Origin: an uncultured Caulobacterales bacterium | Lineage (GTDB): Bacteria > Pseudomonadota > Alphaproteobacteria > Caulobacterales > Caulobacteraceae | Reading direction: 5' to 3' | Length of the DNA: 64,000 nucleotides | NCBI GenBank assembly: GCA_903840435.1 | Contig: CAIMFV010000020.1 | Location: 1-64,000 of the forward strand | Part shown: positions 9,088 to 56,935 of the stretch, one piece after another | How the letters are laid out: every line of letters starts with the position of its first letter | Position numbering within the stretch: position 1 is the first letter of the stretch | Translations under genes and position numbers: made by a program | Notes under the pieces: model-generated | Told to the model about the DNA's origin: nothing | The model's input: only the letters and a program-made list of their open reading frames with translations | Databases searched by the model: none

Positions 9088-9412
9088 CTTTGCAGGCCCG
9101 TCCCTGGGTCCCGGCCTGCGCTGGGTTGGGCGGTGGAAAGGTGTGTGATTTCAATTATATCCGCTCATGACCTGTGAAGGCCGGTATCCAGGGGGTCATC
9201 CCCGAACGTCTGCGGCCCCGTCTCTGGATCCCGGCCTACGCCGGGATGAGCGGTGGAAAGGTTAGTGATTTCAATTACATCCGCTCATGACCGGCGAAGG
9301 CCGGTATCCAGGGGGGCATCCCCAAACCTCAGCAGGCTCGCCCCTGGACCCCGGCCTACGCCGAGGGGAACGCCGGAAAGGTGAGTGATTTCAATCCTAC
9401 CGGCTCATATCG
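9088..9412 (-). repeat. Tandem array of the 120-bp nested-palindrome repeat, copy set B
   Basis: The anchor GGAAAGG of the segment GG(T/C)GGAAAGGT occurs in units starting at 9132, 9252 and 9372, exactly 120 bp apart. The best unit has an arm at 9224-9253 (CTGGATCCCGGCCTACGCCG onward) and an inverted homologous arm at 9281-9312, separated by 27 nt that include GTGATTTCAAT. Each arm has its own GC-rich hairpin, so the unit is a palindrome of palindromes like a BIME. The orientation is opposite to array A at 1-260. The array fills most of the 403-bp gap between pepP and prmA; I see no gene in it. Confidence 0.88.
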
Positions 9413-49211: not shown

Positions 49212-49958
49212 ATGGCATTGCTAGACCCCATCGCCAAGCTTTTCCAGCCCAAGGCTGAAAAGGACATCACGTCGCAGGCTGTTGCAGGCGCGGACGGTGC
49301 GCTTGTTTCTGCGACTGAAAATGATTGCGAGCGCCAGGGGCAAATTTGGCAAGACGGCGCCTATTCCACAGCCGTGACCGCCCTGAGCGCCAAATTAGCC
49401 CGCGCGGAAGGGCCGCAACGCCCCAACGAGTTCGAGGCCTTCGCGGCCATTTTTGCACCGCGCCCCGCTGCGGAGGCCGATATTCGGCGCCTCTACCGCT
49501 TGGCCCGGCAAACGACGCTTGGCTATGAAGGTTACGCGCACAAGCTGGCGGTCCGATATGGACGCTGTCCGGTGGTGCTCGAACGGGTGTTGGATGGCCT
49601 TTATCGGCTAGCCTTGGCCGACGGGGTTGTCAGTGAACGGGAAACGGCCTTTCTCGACTCAGTCGCCGCGGCCCTTGGCTTGCCAATGGAAACCGCCCGC
49701 TCGGTTCGCGCGAGGCGATTAGGCATTCTCGACGACGACCCTTATCGCGTGCTGGCTGTTGATCCTACGGCGTCGGATGAATTGGTGCGCGCGGCGTGGC
49801 GCAAAGCCTTGGTCGAATCCCATCCTGACCGCGCCATTGCGCGGGGTCTGCCTGCCCACCTCGTGGCCCGGGCCCAGGCTCAGGCTCAGGCCATAAATGC
49901 GGCCTTTGATCGGGTGATGAGCGAGCGACGGGGTGGCCTTGCAACTGGACCCGCCTAA
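49212..49958 (+). CDS. TerB/DjlA-like co-chaperone with a C-terminal J domain
   Basis: The 248-residue protein has a TerB-like helical region in the middle (VVLERVLDGLYRLALADGVV onward, about 115-165) and a J domain at the C-terminus (DDPYRVLAVDPTASDELVRA, then HPDR in SHPDRAIARG). This resembles DjlA without its membrane anchor. The HPD tripeptide is intact, so it should stimulate a DnaK ATPase. The first 60 residues show no known domain. It is transcribed toward a small membrane protein and an AmpD gene. Confidence 0.82.
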   Translation: MALLDPIAKLFQPKAEKDITSQAVAGADGALVSATENDCERQGQIWQDGAYSTAVTALSAKLARAEGPQRPNEFEAFAAIFAPRPAAEADIRRLYRLARQTTLGYEGYAHKLAVRYGRCPVVLERVLDGLYRLALADGVVSERETAFLDSVAAALGLPMETARSVRARRLGILDDDPYRVLAVDPTASDELVRAAWRKALVESHPDRAIARGLPAHLVARAQAQAQAINAAFDRVMSERRGGLATGPA

Positions 49959-51177: not shown

Positions 51178-51510
51178 GCCGCTATTGGCTTGGCCAGGTT
51201 GAGATATTTTTGTCAGCCAGCGGCGTGCGGTAAATAGTAAATTTCTGGTCATCTTAAGACGAACAGATGTTTGACCTGATTTTCTGAGGCTTTCGCTTGG
51301 CCTGAGCGCAATTCTCAGCCCCTGGGTGCGAGGTCGCCTTGGCTTGCCAAGCTGATTTTTGCCGCGGGAGATGAATTCTTGGCAATCTTGCGCATCTTAC
51401 AAAGAATTCACGGGTCTTTTGGGCCGGAGTCTGGTCTTTAGTCTGTCAACGGAAGACACGACTTCGCCCGCCATTGCAGCGGCCCCGGGGTCGAACTGGA
51501 GGATTTTGAG
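51178..51510. other. 333-bp intergenic region with inverted repeats
   Basis: No gene is visible. Three inverted repeats occur: CTGAG/CTCAG (51302-51318), CTTGGC-TT-GCCAAG (51338-51351) followed 4 nt later by a run of five T, which could be a weak terminator for the amidase gene, and GAATTCTT/AAGAATTC (51373-51380 and 51402-51409) with a 21-nt gap, which could be an operator for the next operon. GGAGGA at 51498-51503 is the ribosome site of the DUF6249-like gene. Confidence 0.45.
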
Positions 51511-51915
51511 ATGAGTGACGACGCCCTTGTTCCCATTGTCATGTTTGGCTCCATTGCCGCCACGGTGATTGCCTATCGCTATTTTCGCCATAAGGAGCGG
51601 ATGGAGGCACAGCAACTGCTGCGTACCGCCTATGAAAAGGGCCAGCCCGTCTCGCCGGATATGTTGCGGGCGCTCGAGACCCCGCCGCCGCGTCGGAATT
51701 GGGGCTTTTACGGTCCGGAACGGGATTTGCGGCGCGGCATTTTGGGGCTCGGCTTTGCCTGCGCTTTTCTGGCTGGCGGCTGGTTGCTTTACCGCTACGA
51801 CCCCAGCAATGACGCAACCGGCGTCCTCGAGTGCATTGCAGCCTTTCCAGGCTTCGTCGGCGTCGCCCACCTCGTCAACTACGCGCTTCTCCGAAATCGC
51901 CCCCCCGAGCGCTGA
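51511..51915 (+). CDS. DUF6249-like small membrane protein
   Basis: The 134-residue protein has an N-terminal helix (about 5-23, ALVPIVMFGSIAATVIAYRY), a cytoplasmic loop with PPRRNWGFYGPERDLRRG, then two more helices (about 72-90 and 105-125). The KERMEAQQLLRTAYEKGQPV segment is typical of small membrane proteins encoded next to ECF sigma genes. The start has GGAGGA with a 7-nt spacer. It lies 27 bp before the sigma-like gene and is probably in its operon. Confidence 0.65.
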   Translation: MSDDALVPIVMFGSIAATVIAYRYFRHKERMEAQQLLRTAYEKGQPVSPDMLRALETPPPRRNWGFYGPERDLRRGILGLGFACAFLAGGWLLYRYDPSNDATGVLECIAAFPGFVGVAHLVNYALLRNRPPER

Positions 51916-51942
51916 GCCACAGCCTGACACGGGAGACAGCCC

Positions 51943-52896
51943 ATGGGGGGCGATACGGAGGACGAGGCATCAGCGCGTTCCGGCGCGCCGAGAGCCTTGG
52001 TCACATTACACGATGTCGACCTGGCGCGACGGGTTCTGAGCGGCGACAGGCTGGCCTTTGTTGAGCTTGCGCGGCGTCATGGCTCGGCGCTTCGGGTATT
52101 CTTTGCTCGGCTGGGTGTACGACCGGCACAGATCGACACCTTTGCGCTGGAAACCTTCTCGACTGCGCTGGCCGACATTTCGGAGTTTCGCGCCGAGCAA
52201 CCCTTTTTGATGTGGTTGAAGACCAAGGGGGCCCGTCACCTTATGCGGCGCGGCGGCCTTGGCGGTGACGGGCCTCTAGGCCCCTGGCCCGCTTTGCCGG
52301 AAGAGAATCTAACCGCGCTTGATATTGCACTCGAACCGCTCAGCTCAGAGGCCCGCGCCGTTGTTGGCTTGGTTCATGGCGCGGGCATGGCCGTGCAAGA
52401 CTGCGCTGAGGTCTTGAGCAAGGACCTGTCGACGGTAAGGGCCTTGCGCCGCCAAGCCATCGCCGACTTGGGCGCCCGCCTGAACGACGCCGCGGCGATG
52501 TCGGAAAATGACAGGGTTGCCGAAATCGAGCGCCTTTATGAGGCAACGCCCGCTCTTATCGATGCCGACCTCTTTGCCCGGGCCGTCGCGCTTCAGGTGG
52601 ACCGAGGCTGGGAAGCGCGCCGGTTGGTGATTAGCGTTCTGGGACTGGCGGGGGGCTTGGTCGCTGTTATCGACCTAGCAGGACCAAACCTTCTGTCGCG
52701 GTTGAACCTGATCAGCCAAACCTCTGCTGCGGCGGCCTCGCGCGGCGTCCATTCCGCCCCGGTCCTAGCTAATCTCACTGGGCGCGTCATTGCCATGCTG
52801 GGGGCGCCCTATGGCGTCGAGGTGGCGTGGCTGGTGGTCGGCTTGTTAGTGCTCGCCGGCGGCCTGATCGTCGCCCGCCTCATCGAAGAGATTTGA
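51943..52896 (+). CDS. ECF-sigma-like protein fused to a two-helix membrane domain
   Basis: The 317-residue product reads as two parts. Residues about 20-185 look like an ECF sigma factor: a region-2-like segment (AFVELARRHGSALRVFFARL, FALETFSTALADISEFRAEQ) and a region-4-like helix-turn-helix (MAVQDCAEVLSKDLSTVRAL). From Met186 (52498) the frame continues into SENDRVAEIERLYEATPAL, a membrane helix at about 227-246 and another at 292-312, which resembles the separate anti-sigma-like protein usually found next to such genes. The join is in frame, with no ribosome site before Met186. Both domain calls are by eye and moderate. Confidence 0.62.
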   Translation: MGGDTEDEASARSGAPRALVTLHDVDLARRVLSGDRLAFVELARRHGSALRVFFARLGVRPAQIDTFALETFSTALADISEFRAEQPFLMWLKTKGARHLMRRGGLGGDGPLGPWPALPEENLTALDIALEPLSSEARAVVGLVHGAGMAVQDCAEVLSKDLSTVRALRRQAIADLGARLNDAAAMSENDRVAEIERLYEATPALIDADLFARAVALQVDRGWEARRLVISVLGLAGGLVAVIDLAGPNLLSRLNLISQTSAAAASRGVHSAPVLANLTGRVIAMLGAPYGVEVAWLVVGLLVLAGGLIVARLIEEI

Positions 52897-53069
52897 CGGA
52901 AGGCCGCCTTGGTCAAAATTCGGTCACGGGCGCAGCCCTAATGGGGTAAGCGGAGAAAAGCGTCGACCGCATTGCTCCCGCATTGCTCCTTGACGCCGAA
53001 GCCGATAGTTTGCCGCGTCCTTGCCGGCCGACCGGACTTGGACCTAAGGAAAGCGGAGCCGAAAACAGC

Positions 53070-53831
53070 GTGGCCGATATTTTTGAAGAAGTCGAAGAGC
53101 AACTCCGCTCCGACCGTTATCTGACCCTGGTCAAGAAATCCTGGCCCTTCGCGGCAGGCGCCTTTGGCGCAGCCTTGGCGATCGCGCTCGGGCTCTGGGC
53201 CTGGGATAATTATCAGGCCGGGCTGCAAGCCAAGGCGTCTGAAACCTATAATCAAGGCCTTGAGGCGCTGGAGCGCGGTGACAAGCCGTCAGCCGAGAAG
53301 GCGTTTAGCGGTGTGGCCCAGTCGGGTCCGCGTGGATATCGGACCCTTGCCCTGATGCAGGAAGCCGCGCTGCGGCTGGACGATCATAAATCCGCCGAGG
53401 CCATCTCGCTGTTTGAACAGGCGGCGAATGCCGCGCCCGACAAGGTGCTCGGAGATAATGCACGCTTCAAGGCCGCGCTGGTCGCCATGGACAATGGCGA
53501 AGCCCTGCCTCAGATCGAGGCGCGGTTACAACCTCTGACCGCAGCCGACCGACCCTTCCGGCTGGCGGCCCGCGAGGCGCTGGCGCTCGCCCGCTTGGCG
53601 GCGGGAAAGACCGACCTTGCCAAGGCTGACTTCACCGCCTTGTCCCTGTCGCCGGACGCCAGTGAAACCGCGCGGGCCCGGGCTCAAGCAGCCCTGACCC
53701 TGATCGCTTCTGGTTCTGCCTCGAGCATACCCCAAGCCCTGAAGATCGCGCGGACCCTGCCGCCCCCGCCGCCGCAAGCGGCAAACCCCCTCGCGGCCAT
53801 GATGGCGGCTCAAGCTGGAGCCGGCCAATGA
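53070..53831 (+). CDS. YfgM-like membrane-anchored TPR protein
   Basis: The 253-residue protein begins VADIFEEVEEQLRSDR, has one transmembrane helix (about 30-48) and a periplasmic TPR_21-type region. That is the form of YfgM, a partner of SecYEG and periplasmic chaperones in E. coli, and yfgM-bamB-der is the usual order. I used GTG 53070; the frame is open to 52983 but the family start fits here. It overlaps bamB by 4 bp (ATGA). Confidence 0.85.
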   Translation: MADIFEEVEEQLRSDRYLTLVKKSWPFAAGAFGAALAIALGLWAWDNYQAGLQAKASETYNQGLEALERGDKPSAEKAFSGVAQSGPRGYRTLALMQEAALRLDDHKSAEAISLFEQAANAAPDKVLGDNARFKAALVAMDNGEALPQIEARLQPLTAADRPFRLAAREALALARLAAGKTDLAKADFTALSLSPDASETARARAQAALTLIASGSASSIPQALKIARTLPPPPPQAANPLAAMMAAQAGAGQ

Positions 53832-55186
53832 TGCGAACATCTACTCTGCGTCGCGTCGGCGCGGCACTTGGGCTTAGCCTGGCCTTGGCGGCGGGCCTGA
53901 GCGGATGCGGTCTGAAAACGCCGCATGTTCCCTTTACTGGCGCGAAAAAAGTCGAGCCCAAGATCAAGGGCGAACGGATTCCGGTCTTAAGCTTGAACCA
54001 AAAGCTTGAGGCCTCGCCCGCCTTGAAGGATATCGGCTTCGCGCTTGGGGCACCCACGGCGCAAGCCAATTGGCCCGTCTCCGGCGGTAATGCTGAGCAT
54101 GCAATCGAACATGTCCAGGCTGGCGATCAGTTCAAGATTGCTTGGCGGCGAAAGATTGGCGCAGGCGACAGCCGCACCACGCGCATCATTGATCAGCCGG
54201 TTGTCTCCGACGGCGTCCTCTACGTGCTCGATGGCAAGGCCAAGGTCAGCGCGCTTGATGCGGCGAGCGGCAAGCCGATCTGGTCAACGGACCTCGCCCC
54301 GCACAAGGGACGCGATCAAGAAGCCTTAGGCGGCGGCTTGGCGGTCGATGGCGGACATGTGCTGATGGCGTCAGGCTACCGCTTCGCCGCCAGTCTCGAC
54401 GCCAAGACCGGAAAATTGGAGTGGAAAACCGAGACCGCTGCGCCTCTGCACGGAGCGCCTGCGATTGGCGGCGGACGGATCTATGTGGTCGATACCTTGG
54501 ATCAGTTGCACGCCTTTGATGAAGCCACAGGCGTTGAGAGCTGGAGCTACCAAGCCCTGGAAGAACCGGCCCGCATTGAAATCGCCTCCAGCCCAGCCAT
54601 ATTCGGTGACCTCGTCATTGCGCCGTTTGCGTCCGGGGAACTGACGGCGTTGCGGGCCAGCAATGGCAATGATGTGTGGTCCTATGTGCTTTCGCTGACC
54701 AATCGCAACAATGCCTTGTCGGAAATTCGCGACATTGCCGGACTTCCGGTGGTCTTTCGTGGCCAAGTCATTGCCGCAAGCCATTCCGGTGTCATGGCGT
54801 CGGTGGATATCAAGTCTGGCCAGCCGCGTTGGAGCCAGCCGATTACCGCCATTTCGACTCCTTGGGTGTCTGGGGACGTTGTCTTCATCATGGACCTGTC
54901 GGGCCAGCTGATGTGCCTTAGCCGTGAATCTGGCCAAGCCTATTGGATCAAGTCCTTGAACGGTCCCTTGCGGAAGAAGTTCCGCGCCAGCTGGTCTGGC
55001 GTCATCTTGGCGTCGAACCGCTTGGTGGCGGTGTCGTCCAAGGGTGAGCTCCGCGGATTTGATCCGAAGACCGGTGATAAGGTGGCGTCTTTGCGCATCG
55101 GTGAAGGGGCAACGCTTGCGCCCATCGCCGCCGATGGCTTGCTCTATGTCGTCACTGACCAAGGCGACGTGGTGGCGGTGCGCTAA
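53828..55186 (+). CDS. bamB: Outer membrane assembly lipoprotein BamB
   Basis: BamB is a beta-propeller lipoprotein that supports the BAM complex. The 452-residue protein has a signal ending with lipobox LSGC (residue about 28) and seven to eight PQQ-like blades (VLYVLDGKAKVSALDAASGK, GRIYVVDTLDQLHAFDEATG and others). It is somewhat longer than E. coli BamB (392). bamD is also in this window, 20 kb away. Confidence 0.93.
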   Translation: MMRTSTLRRVGAALGLSLALAAGLSGCGLKTPHVPFTGAKKVEPKIKGERIPVLSLNQKLEASPALKDIGFALGAPTAQANWPVSGGNAEHAIEHVQAGDQFKIAWRRKIGAGDSRTTRIIDQPVVSDGVLYVLDGKAKVSALDAASGKPIWSTDLAPHKGRDQEALGGGLAVDGGHVLMASGYRFAASLDAKTGKLEWKTETAAPLHGAPAIGGGRIYVVDTLDQLHAFDEATGVESWSYQALEEPARIEIASSPAIFGDLVIAPFASGELTALRASNGNDVWSYVLSLTNRNNALSEIRDIAGLPVVFRGQVIAASHSGVMASVDIKSGQPRWSQPITAISTPWVSGDVVFIMDLSGQLMCLSRESGQAYWIKSLNGPLRKKFRASWSGVILASNRLVAVSSKGELRGFDPKTGDKVASLRIGEGATLAPIAADGLLYVVTDQGDVVAVR

Positions 55187-55252
55187 GTCATTGACCTTCG
55201 GGGATGTCTTCGAAGGTCGGACACCGACACTCATTTTAGGAAGGCCTGCGCT

Positions 55253-56935
55253 GTGGCGCTAAAGCTCGCCATTATCGGCCGACCCAATGTCGGCAAATCG
55301 ACGCTGTTCAATCGGCTGGCCGGGAGACGCTTGGCCATTGTCGACGACAGGCCCGGCGTGACCCGCGACCGGCGCGGCGCCGAAGGGCGGTTGGGCGATG
55401 TGGATCTGCACCTGATCGATACGGCAGGCTTTGAAGACGTTGACGACGAAAGCCTGGAATCGCGCATGCGCGCCCAGACGGAAGTGGCGATCGACGAGGC
55501 CGATGTCTGCCTGTTCGTTATTGATGCCAGGGAAGGCGTCACCGCCCTCGACATGATCTTTGCCGACATCCTGCGGCGTAAAAATCGGCCTGTCATCTTG
55601 GCGGCCAACAAGTCGGAGGGCAAGGCGGGCGTGATCGGCGCCGCTGAGGCGTTCAAGCTTGGCTTTGGCGAGCCCGTCGAAATTTCGGCCGAGCATGGTG
55701 AAGGGATGGGCGACCTCTATCAGGCCCTGTTGCATATCGCTCCCGACCTGACCGCCGTCGAAGCCGATGATGCGGACGACTTCGCTGAAGTGGTGGAAAT
55801 GGCGGACGAAGACGCCGGGCCAGATTTGAAAAAGCCGGTTCTGATCGCGATTGTTGGGCGTCCAAATGCGGGCAAATCAACCCTGGTCAACCGATTGATT
55901 GGCGAGGAGCGGCTGCTGGTTGGCCCCGAGGCGGGCATAACTCGCGACGCCATCCCCGTCGATTGGACCTATCAGGGGCGACCCGTGCGCCTCGTTGATA
56001 CGGCGGGCTTGCGCCGCAAGGCGCGAGTAAACGAAAAGCTCGAAAAGCTCTCCACCGGCGATACCTTGCGCACCATCACCTTCGCCGAGGTGGTTATTCT
56101 GGTCATGGACGCCGACAATGCGTTCGAGACCCAAGACCTGCAAATCGCTGATCTGGTCGAGCGTGAGGGCCGGGGGCTGGTCTTTTGCATTTCCAAATGG
56201 GACCTGATCGAAAATCCCGGCGTCAAGCTCGCCGAATTGCGCGAAACCGCTGAGCGCATGTTGCCTCAGGTGCGCGGCGCGCCCCTCATCGCGCTATCAG
56301 CCGAAACCGGTCAAAACTGCGATCGGCTCATGCCTGCAGTGTTTAAGCTGCACGGCGATTGGTCGACCAAGGTCAAAACCCGCGACCTAAACGATTGGCT
56401 GGCCATGGCTGTGCAGCGTCACCCGCCACCGGCAGTCGACGGCAAGCGCATCCGGCCAAAATATATGGCGCAGACCAAGGCACGCCCGCCCACCTTTGTG
56501 CTGTTCGCCAGTCGGGCTGCCTATTTGCCGGAAAGTTATCGGCGCTATCTGATCAATTCCCTGCGAGAGAGTTTTGATCTGCCGGGCGTACCCTTGCGCA
56601 TTACCATTAAGTCTGGCGTCAACCCCTTCGCCCAAGCCGTCGACCCGAGCGATGGCCGCGCCCGACCCTTGACCAAGAAGTTCCGTGGCGCGCACCCGTC
56701 CTCCTCGCGTCATGCGGCGCCTTCAAAGCCCAAACCTGCCGCCGCCGCCGCGCCCAATCCGGTCAAACCCACAAGCCCAGCTAAACCCAAACCCGTTTCA
56801 AAGCTGAAAAGTGGATTTGGACCTAAGCCCTCCGGTCCGGCCAAAAGACAGCCAAATCGAGCCCCCACCAAAGCCAGCGCCTCCGCCAAACGCGCGCCGG
56901 GGGGCGGGCGACCGAAGGGTGGCCCAAAACGGTAG
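55253..56935 (+). CDS. der: Ribosome assembly GTPase Der (EngA)
   Basis: Der is an essential GTPase with two G domains for 50S assembly. Here are P-loops GRPNVGKSTLFNRL (residue about 8) and GRPNAGKSTLVNRL (about 205), then the KH-like domain. The 560-residue length exceeds the usual 450-490 because of a C-terminal extension of about 85 residues rich in Pro, Lys and Ala. Start is GTG 55253 after a GGAAGG (55240-55245). It follows bamB after 66 bp. Confidence 0.96.
   Translation: MALKLAIIGRPNVGKSTLFNRLAGRRLAIVDDRPGVTRDRRGAEGRLGDVDLHLIDTAGFEDVDDESLESRMRAQTEVAIDEADVCLFVIDAREGVTALDMIFADILRRKNRPVILAANKSEGKAGVIGAAEAFKLGFGEPVEISAEHGEGMGDLYQALLHIAPDLTAVEADDADDFAEVVEMADEDAGPDLKKPVLIAIVGRPNAGKSTLVNRLIGEERLLVGPEAGITRDAIPVDWTYQGRPVRLVDTAGLRRKARVNEKLEKLSTGDTLRTITFAEVVILVMDADNAFETQDLQIADLVEREGRGLVFCISKWDLIENPGVKLAELRETAERMLPQVRGAPLIALSAETGQNCDRLMPAVFKLHGDWSTKVKTRDLNDWLAMAVQRHPPPAVDGKRIRPKYMAQTKARPPTFVLFASRAAYLPESYRRYLINSLRESFDLPGVPLRITIKSGVNPFAQAVDPSDGRARPLTKKFRGAHPSSSRHAAPSKPKPAAAAAPNPVKPTSPAKPKPVSKLKSGFGPKPSGPAKRQPNRAPTKASASAKRAPGGGRPKGGPKR

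Follow-up and report, generated by a model that had tools for sequence, protein, structure and literature searches.

A degenerate ECF sigma domain fused in frame to its membrane partner in a single lineage of Caulobacteraceae

Proteins in which a sigma factor and an anti-sigma factor share one polypeptide are known as switches. IutY of Pseudomonas putida (ECF243) unites the two in one chain (PMC5411451, PMC8999054), from which the active sigma is freed by Prc and RseP (PMC5411451). ECF36, ECF48, ECF52, and ECF53 also carry fused transmembrane anti-sigma portions (PMC8999054). A sigma domain can, moreover, outlive its role in transcription, as in PhyR, where a degenerate one lives on as a mimic (PMC8103513). 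Sigma/anti-sigma fusions and degenerate sigma domains are thus known separately; the combination of both, recent and confined to a single lineage, would be new. Among the papers listed by our literature search, which is no proof of absence, none showed a degenerate sigma fused to its own anti-sigma.

The locus described here lies in a 64,000-nucleotide stretch of DNA (hereafter, the window) from an uncultured Caulobacterales bacterium (GenBank assembly GCA_903840435.1, contig CAIMFV010000020.1, positions 1 to 64,000). Its fused protein is like IutY in having an N-terminal ECF sigma part and a C-terminal, anti-sigma-like membrane part, that is, one chain from two functions. As far as IutY is described in these sources, it crosses the membrane once and carries a FecR-like domain in the periplasm, whereas the window protein has two hydrophobic segments and no recognizable FecR domain; the IutY sigma is active, whereas the sigma half here is degenerate. 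The joining of an ECF domain to membrane helices is shared with ECF36, ECF48, ECF52, and ECF53. However, ECF48, ECF52, and ECF53 are described as actinobacterial, with a zinc-finger-type anti-sigma domain, whereas residues 186–226 of the window protein contain no Cys or His, i.e., no zinc-binding motif. ECF36 is described as an N-terminal fusion with three to four helices and DUF2275, whereas the window fusion is C-terminal. As in PhyR, the ECF fold is apparently kept while the promoter and polymerase contacts are degenerate, but PhyR, which includes a receiver domain, titrates NepR, a distinct anti-sigma protein, whereas the window domain forms one chain with its own membrane partner, and no receiver was found. 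With moderate confidence, we think that the fused protein is a membrane-tethered sigma relic that has kept its fold and whose membrane half retains a function independent of sigma.

The fusion of the sigma and its partner is real. The initial annotation placed it at 51511–52896. There is indeed a single stop-free frame in which a sigma-like half passes into one bearing two hydrophobic segments, but it is confined to the second of two genes within that interval (Table 1), and a single-frame translation of the whole hits stops at the end of the first. The first gene encodes the small membrane protein that had been noted next door, and it can be assigned to DUF6249 (Pfam E 1.8e-10; 41.1 bits vs a cut-off of 33); in the literature set that we searched, this family brought up a single, unrelated paper. 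A scan of the whole window against Rfam gave no match. Elsewhere in the window, a 120-bp unit with a CCGGGAT-type palindrome occurs in 2.5 tandem copies (9092–9395), and a DjlA-like protein carries a TerB domain and a C-terminal DnaJ domain (49212–49958).

Table 1. Positions of the fused gene, its parts, and its neighbors in the window.
Feature	Position	Strand	Details
First promoter-like box, remnant	51397-51410	+	TTACAAAGAATTCA; 12/14 matches to TTACGAAGATTTCA; overlaps right repeat arm
Site of lost second box	51422-51427	+	GGCCGG; relatives GCATCC or GCATCT
DUF6249 small membrane-protein gene	51511-51915	+	134 aa, ends TGA; Pfam match; neighbor conserved in relatives
Fused gene, degenerate ECF sigma half plus membrane half	51943-52896	+	317 aa plus stop, one open frame
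Sigma-derived half, residues 1-185	51943-52497	+	Profiles, synteny, residue counts, predicted fold
Region 2.2 remnant, residues 64-72	52132-52158	+	IDTFALETF; relatives (A)DDLAQDAF
Region 4.2 recognition-helix remnant, residues 161-171	52423-52455	+	DLSTVRALRRQ; relatives PLGTVKSHVKR
Seam, residues 181-186 (NDAAA-M)	52483-52500	+	Net 34 nt shorter vs congener G005; without SD or stop
Membrane-partner half, residues 186-317	52498-52893	+	Cytosolic helices ~188-225, two hydrophobic helices
First hydrophobic segment, residues 228-246	52624-52680	+	Kyte-Doolittle
Second hydrophobic segment, residues 292-310	52816-52872	+	Kyte-Doolittle
Downstream syntenic genes, whole block	52983-56935	+	Synteny with relatives
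TPR_21 protein gene	52983-53831	+	Synteny
BamB gene	53828-55186	+	Synteny
Der GTPase gene	55253-56935	+	Synteny

In the relatives examined, the two halves are separate genes. The gene order DUF6249–sigma–partner–TPR_21–BamB–Der is common to the window, its congeners, and other genera, where contigs reach that far. Queried with the window protein, 47 of 60 genomes gave a match at E ≤0.001; within the genus, six of six genomes matched (its own among them). In a search of 390 Caulobacteraceae genomes, 384 had a match at E ≤1e-12. The ancestral unit is thus family-wide and fusions of this kind are in print (PMC5411451, PMC8999054), so that to call this an undescribed regulatory unit, as was done at first, claims too much. 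The sigma stop at the seam is present in all 29 relatives read there; in 24 of these, the partner start codon precedes the sigma stop by 5 nt, giving an 8-nt overlap. We also compiled a set of 80 loci, kept from 559 confirmed candidates among the matches listed by an alignment scan, in which 78 have a separate partner, two have no detectable partner, and none is fused. This set overlaps with the 29 relatives, since some contigs occur in both (e.g., L046 and G003:C110, each of 5398 bases). A scan of genome contigs with the window protein as single query produced 27 pattern matches, none confirmed, while the alignment scan did find relatives.

Among the matches listed from the 390-genome search, three extend past model position 210: that of the window, which is stop-free, and those of two relatives, G411 and G016, each of them interrupted by one TGA. 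In G411 (locus L131), sigma and partner share a frame and the lone TGA stands directly before the partner ATG, one stop short of fusion. The partner of G016 (locus L012) seems to shift frame internally: it starts in the overlapping frame, but its C-terminal part is read in that of sigma; this could be an assembly slip or another disturbed partner. No sigma–partner fusion was found in the 29 relatives, in the 80 loci, or among the matches listed from the 390 genomes, and the search for relatives with two unjoined halves turned up separate, overlapping genes. In the examined relatives, a stop divides the syntenic locus into two genes, so the fusion goes beyond a chance arrangement.

A comparison with the nearest congener, G005, locates the change at the seam. 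In G005, 49 nt lie between the last conserved sigma helix and the partner ATG, which is preceded by AGGAAG and followed by an overlapping TGA, vs 15 nt in the window. Relative to G005, a net loss of 34 nt took away the sigma tail, the sigma stop, and the ribosome site of the partner, and thereby moved the partner into the sigma frame. The lack of a ribosome site at Met186, which was remarked on at the outset, holds: the 25 nt before this ATG contain no Shine-Dalgarno-like run.

The N-terminal half goes back to an ECF sigma factor, as first proposed, but falls short of the family profiles. Its origin is supported by synteny and by the predicted fold. In profile searches, residues 1–185 proved sigma-like, though weakly and under the Pfam sigma cut-offs, and residues 186–317 matched nothing in Pfam or NCBIfam. 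The sigma half matched PRK12513 in NCBIfam (E 1.1e-9, far under the cut-off of that model), and its best PDB sequence match was CnrH (E 1.8e-7). Pfam region 4 was detected at E 0.0075, with 16.3–17.7 bits for PF08281 (cut-off 25.7) and 14.0–15.3 bits for PF04545 (cut-off 24.1), and region 2 (PF04542) was absent from the window protein even at E ≤1. By comparison, 18 of 18 relatives match both Pfam sigma regions at E ≤0.001, and region 4 is above its cut-off in all five congeners. Since it reaches neither of the two defining profiles, we do not place the fused protein within the ECF sigma family as such. In its own genome (G000), Sigma70_r2 matches five other places, the window locus not included; Sigma70_r4_2 matches four places there and 14, 4, 10, 7, and 12 in G001 to G005, respectively.

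The degeneracy of the sigma half shows in its overall identity: it is 36–39% identical to the congeners, whereas congeners G002 to G005 share 72–93% among themselves and 58–66% with three other genera. The window has lost residues mainly in region 2.2, which in sigma factors makes the contact to core polymerase, and in region 4.2, which recognizes the -35 element. Of the 39 residues that do not vary among 18 relatives, 23 persist in the window and 16 are gone. By our own assignment of region borders, it keeps nine of ten in the N-terminal part with region 2.1, four of five in region 4.1, and five of eight in regions 2.3–2.4, but two of five in region 2.2 and three of 11 in region 4.2. Across the 80-locus set, these 16 positions are intact in 71 loci, while four loci lack one, four lack two, and one lacks three. 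Region 2.2 of the window retains D65 and F72 and is still acidic at residue 70; its losses include D62 to T and Q65 to L (congener numbering), the original residue being present in 80 of 80 loci in each case.

The sigma half is nonetheless predicted to fold as sigma2–sigma4. For structure prediction, we used two separate alignments (A5 and A6); a combined alignment of window, sigma, and partner (A4), which MAFFT misaligned, was set aside. With sigma rows, AlphaFold2 gave a mean pLDDT of 78.4 and a pTM of 0.66, with pLDDT above 90 across most of residues 21–100 and 131–180; A6 yielded a poor model (pLDDT 67.7, pTM 0.31). The top solved-structure match of the sigma half is CnrH bound to CnrY (Foldseek E 2e-4; VIA-align Z 12.6, rmsd 5.4, 153 aligned), a Z value to be read with care because for helical folds scores under about 13 can be unspecific, although almost every match in this case is a sigma domain. 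Next in rank come other ECF sigmas in complex with anti-sigmas, and the sigma-like domains of PhyR score lower (Z about 9). CnrY has a short cytosolic anti-sigma segment ahead of a membrane helix, a topology that the window partner would share. CnrH and CnrY are encoded by separate genes and work with the sensor CnrX, unlike the single chain of the window.

Relatives share a promoter-like block upstream of DUF6249 that is degraded in the window. The pattern TT(C/A)A-N11-GC(A/C)TC(C/T) occurs there exactly in 28 of 29 relatives. Within 1.2 kb of the sigma ORF, the exact two-box pattern is present at 66 of 76 loci (the 80-locus set minus four with short upstream DNA), vs 0.25 expected from mononucleotide shuffles; an earlier, stricter promoter regex, with three substitutions, was matched at 30 of the 76 only. 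Genome-wide, a longer pattern allowing up to three mismatches was found in 25 of 28 genomes, all but G000, G018, and G034, and a reversed control in 0 of 28. Upstream of the window locus, there is no exact two-box pattern. The block may be the sigma's own promoter. Eight further motif sites were seen in relatives (six with three or two mismatches), some of which may be due to chance. Copies in L126, L127, L128, and L130 precede genes that look secreted or membrane-bound, judged by eye from their translations. It is possible, from these sequence matches, that such copies mark a small regulon of the intact sigma.

An 8-bp inverted repeat had been reported at 51373–51409. It exists, and is in fact 9 bp long, with arms at 51372–51380 and 51402–51410. 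Taken by itself it is weak evidence, since 13% of 300 mononucleotide shuffles of the 333-bp stretch hold at least one 8-bp repeat (mean 0.17; observed, three overlapping or nearby pairs). Its right arm is part of the conserved promoter-like box, and its left arm was not seen in the upstream stretches of five congeners. We therefore rejected the repeat as an operator.

The initial annotation reasoned that a sigma chained to its inhibitor would need cleavage or a conformational change to act. A working sigma of this kind, held at the membrane until proteolysis as in IutY, which operates by such release (PMC5411451), is unlikely to be what the window encodes. It would account for the predicted retention of the sigma fold, and a new promoter specificity could lie behind the fast change in region 4.2 and the disappearance of the old promoter box. 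However, a change of promoter would not call for the losses in region 2.2 at positions that all 80 loci keep. Region 4.2 is itself reduced to a minority of its invariant residues, and the Pfam sigma cut-offs are not reached. With 16 of 39 shared residues gone and the second promoter box lost as well, the idea of a sigma awaiting release is not supported.

The rate of evolution has risen in the sigma half, and only there. We counted relative-rate changes with two outgroups and three congeners, i.e., six comparisons per gene (G001, G003, and the outgroup G028 left out). The sigma half has 55–65 window-only changes vs 3–9 congener-only changes (ratio 6.9–19.7; p ≤7.3e-11), while the partner half has 15–23 vs 12–18 (p ≥0.19), and DUF6249, TPR, BamB, and Der show no difference (p ≥0.17). 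Within this single reading frame, the rate rise is thus limited to one half. The family of the partner is in general fast-evolving, with 54–59% identity among congeners, the close pair G003/G004 aside.

These rates bear on a second alternative: a pseudogene in the making, in which the deletion inactivated the sigma and the whole ORF now drifts, still open by chance. A sigma half that changes 7 to 20 times faster than in congeners, behind a degraded promoter-like block, would fit such decay. In a substitution-only neutral simulation to 51% identity, 185 codons stayed stop-free in about 10% of 400 runs, so that an open frame alone is compatible with decay of the whole ORF. Yet the rate has not gone up in the partner half of this ORF, the window is still hydrophobic at 34 of the 39 sigma columns that are hydrophobic throughout, and the 317-codon frame is intact, with codon-position GC still uneven (0.71, 0.51, 0.71). 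Residue retention also climbs with conservation, from 0.22 to 0.59 across five bins. Retention at family-conserved positions (23/39) is marginally higher than at positions conserved in the genus only (35/87; Fisher p 0.056), which falls short of proving constraint on the sigma relic. We consider the pseudogene rather unlikely; together with the releasable sigma, it is the chief alternative to a tethered relic.

Trees do not place the cassette with its congeners, and its vertical descent therefore rests on synteny. In FastTree, the sigma half groups with L026 (support 0.63) and the partner half with L007 and L025 (0.87). The window sigma branch, at 2.13, is the longest (others: median 0.37, maximum 1.49), and its partner branch, at 1.01, is ordinary to long (median 0.63, maximum 1.14). 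The placement probably reflects long-branch effects. It could also be explained if a divergent cassette of another lineage had taken the place of the original one, with no decay after vertical descent. In keeping with replacement, the sigma half is about equally far from congeners (36–39% identity) and from other genera (35–37%). However, a branch of such length makes placement unreliable, the MGG start is common to the window and its congeners and absent from the other three genera in that alignment, and a functional divergent ECF should pass Pfam, which the window sigma half does not. We regard replacement as very improbable. Even less credible is a sequencing or assembly error joining two intact genes at the seam: the species is represented by one genome, but that assembly is 99.9% complete with 0 contamination, a net loss of 34 nt that includes the Shine-Dalgarno and the stop is unlike a single-base slip, and the sigma half is degenerate along its length, with the promoter box lost too.

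The C-terminal half comes from the membrane protein encoded directly behind sigma. This much of the original description stands; the anti-sigma role that went with it is an assignment from gene order and topology, by analogy with which the partner is a putative anti-sigma factor. Kyte-Doolittle maxima over 19 residues are 2.35 (residues 228–246) and 2.46 (292–310), vs a maximum of 1.24 within residues 1–185. Helices are predicted at 188–200 and 208–246 with moderate confidence, and no homologue was found for the partner. Residues 186–317 match no Pfam or NCBIfam family, so that no FecR-like or receiver domain is recognized, and no solved structure matches the partner convincingly. The best hit of a partner profile against the PDB (E 0.13) and all Pfam matches of partner rows (E ≥0.01) were rejected as chance, and there was no sequence match to CnrY. 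By tblastn, the window partner half found no match in five of the 29 relatives (L005, L018, L024, L026, and L027), nor in G028, although a membrane ORF comes after sigma there.

We return to the reading of the fused protein as a tethered relic. In the ancestor, the short cytosolic helices of the partner would have held sigma at the membrane, and its release would have switched on the operon. The net loss seen against G005 would then have made one reading frame of sigma and partner by removing what separated them. The residues conserved in relatives for binding core polymerase and recognizing promoters may have been lost after the fusion or already before it, with the fold kept. The fused sigma would no longer read its own promoter, now without a second box, nor would it probably bind polymerase. 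We infer that the relic sits in cis on the cytosolic helices of its partner, permanently tethered and never released. The membrane half and the DUF6249 protein would keep a membrane function without need of a working sigma; a decayed sigma half beside a normally evolving membrane half hints that the job of the membrane protein no longer requires an active sigma. More tentatively, the partner might have a function of its own that outlives sigma, with the polymerase-blind sigma acting as a cap in cis that holds the partner in the state it takes when sigma is bound; the protein would then be a sigma mimic that arose by joining a sigma to its own inhibitor. This we consider possible but doubtful.

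The conserved operon and its promoter-like signature in Caulobacteraceae are apparently little studied. A fusion with a degenerate sigma in one lineage, set against two genes that are apart in nearly every genome of the family, provides a natural experiment. Should selection still act on the membrane half although its sigma is dead, the many small membrane partners that are filed only as anti-sigmas may have a second job.
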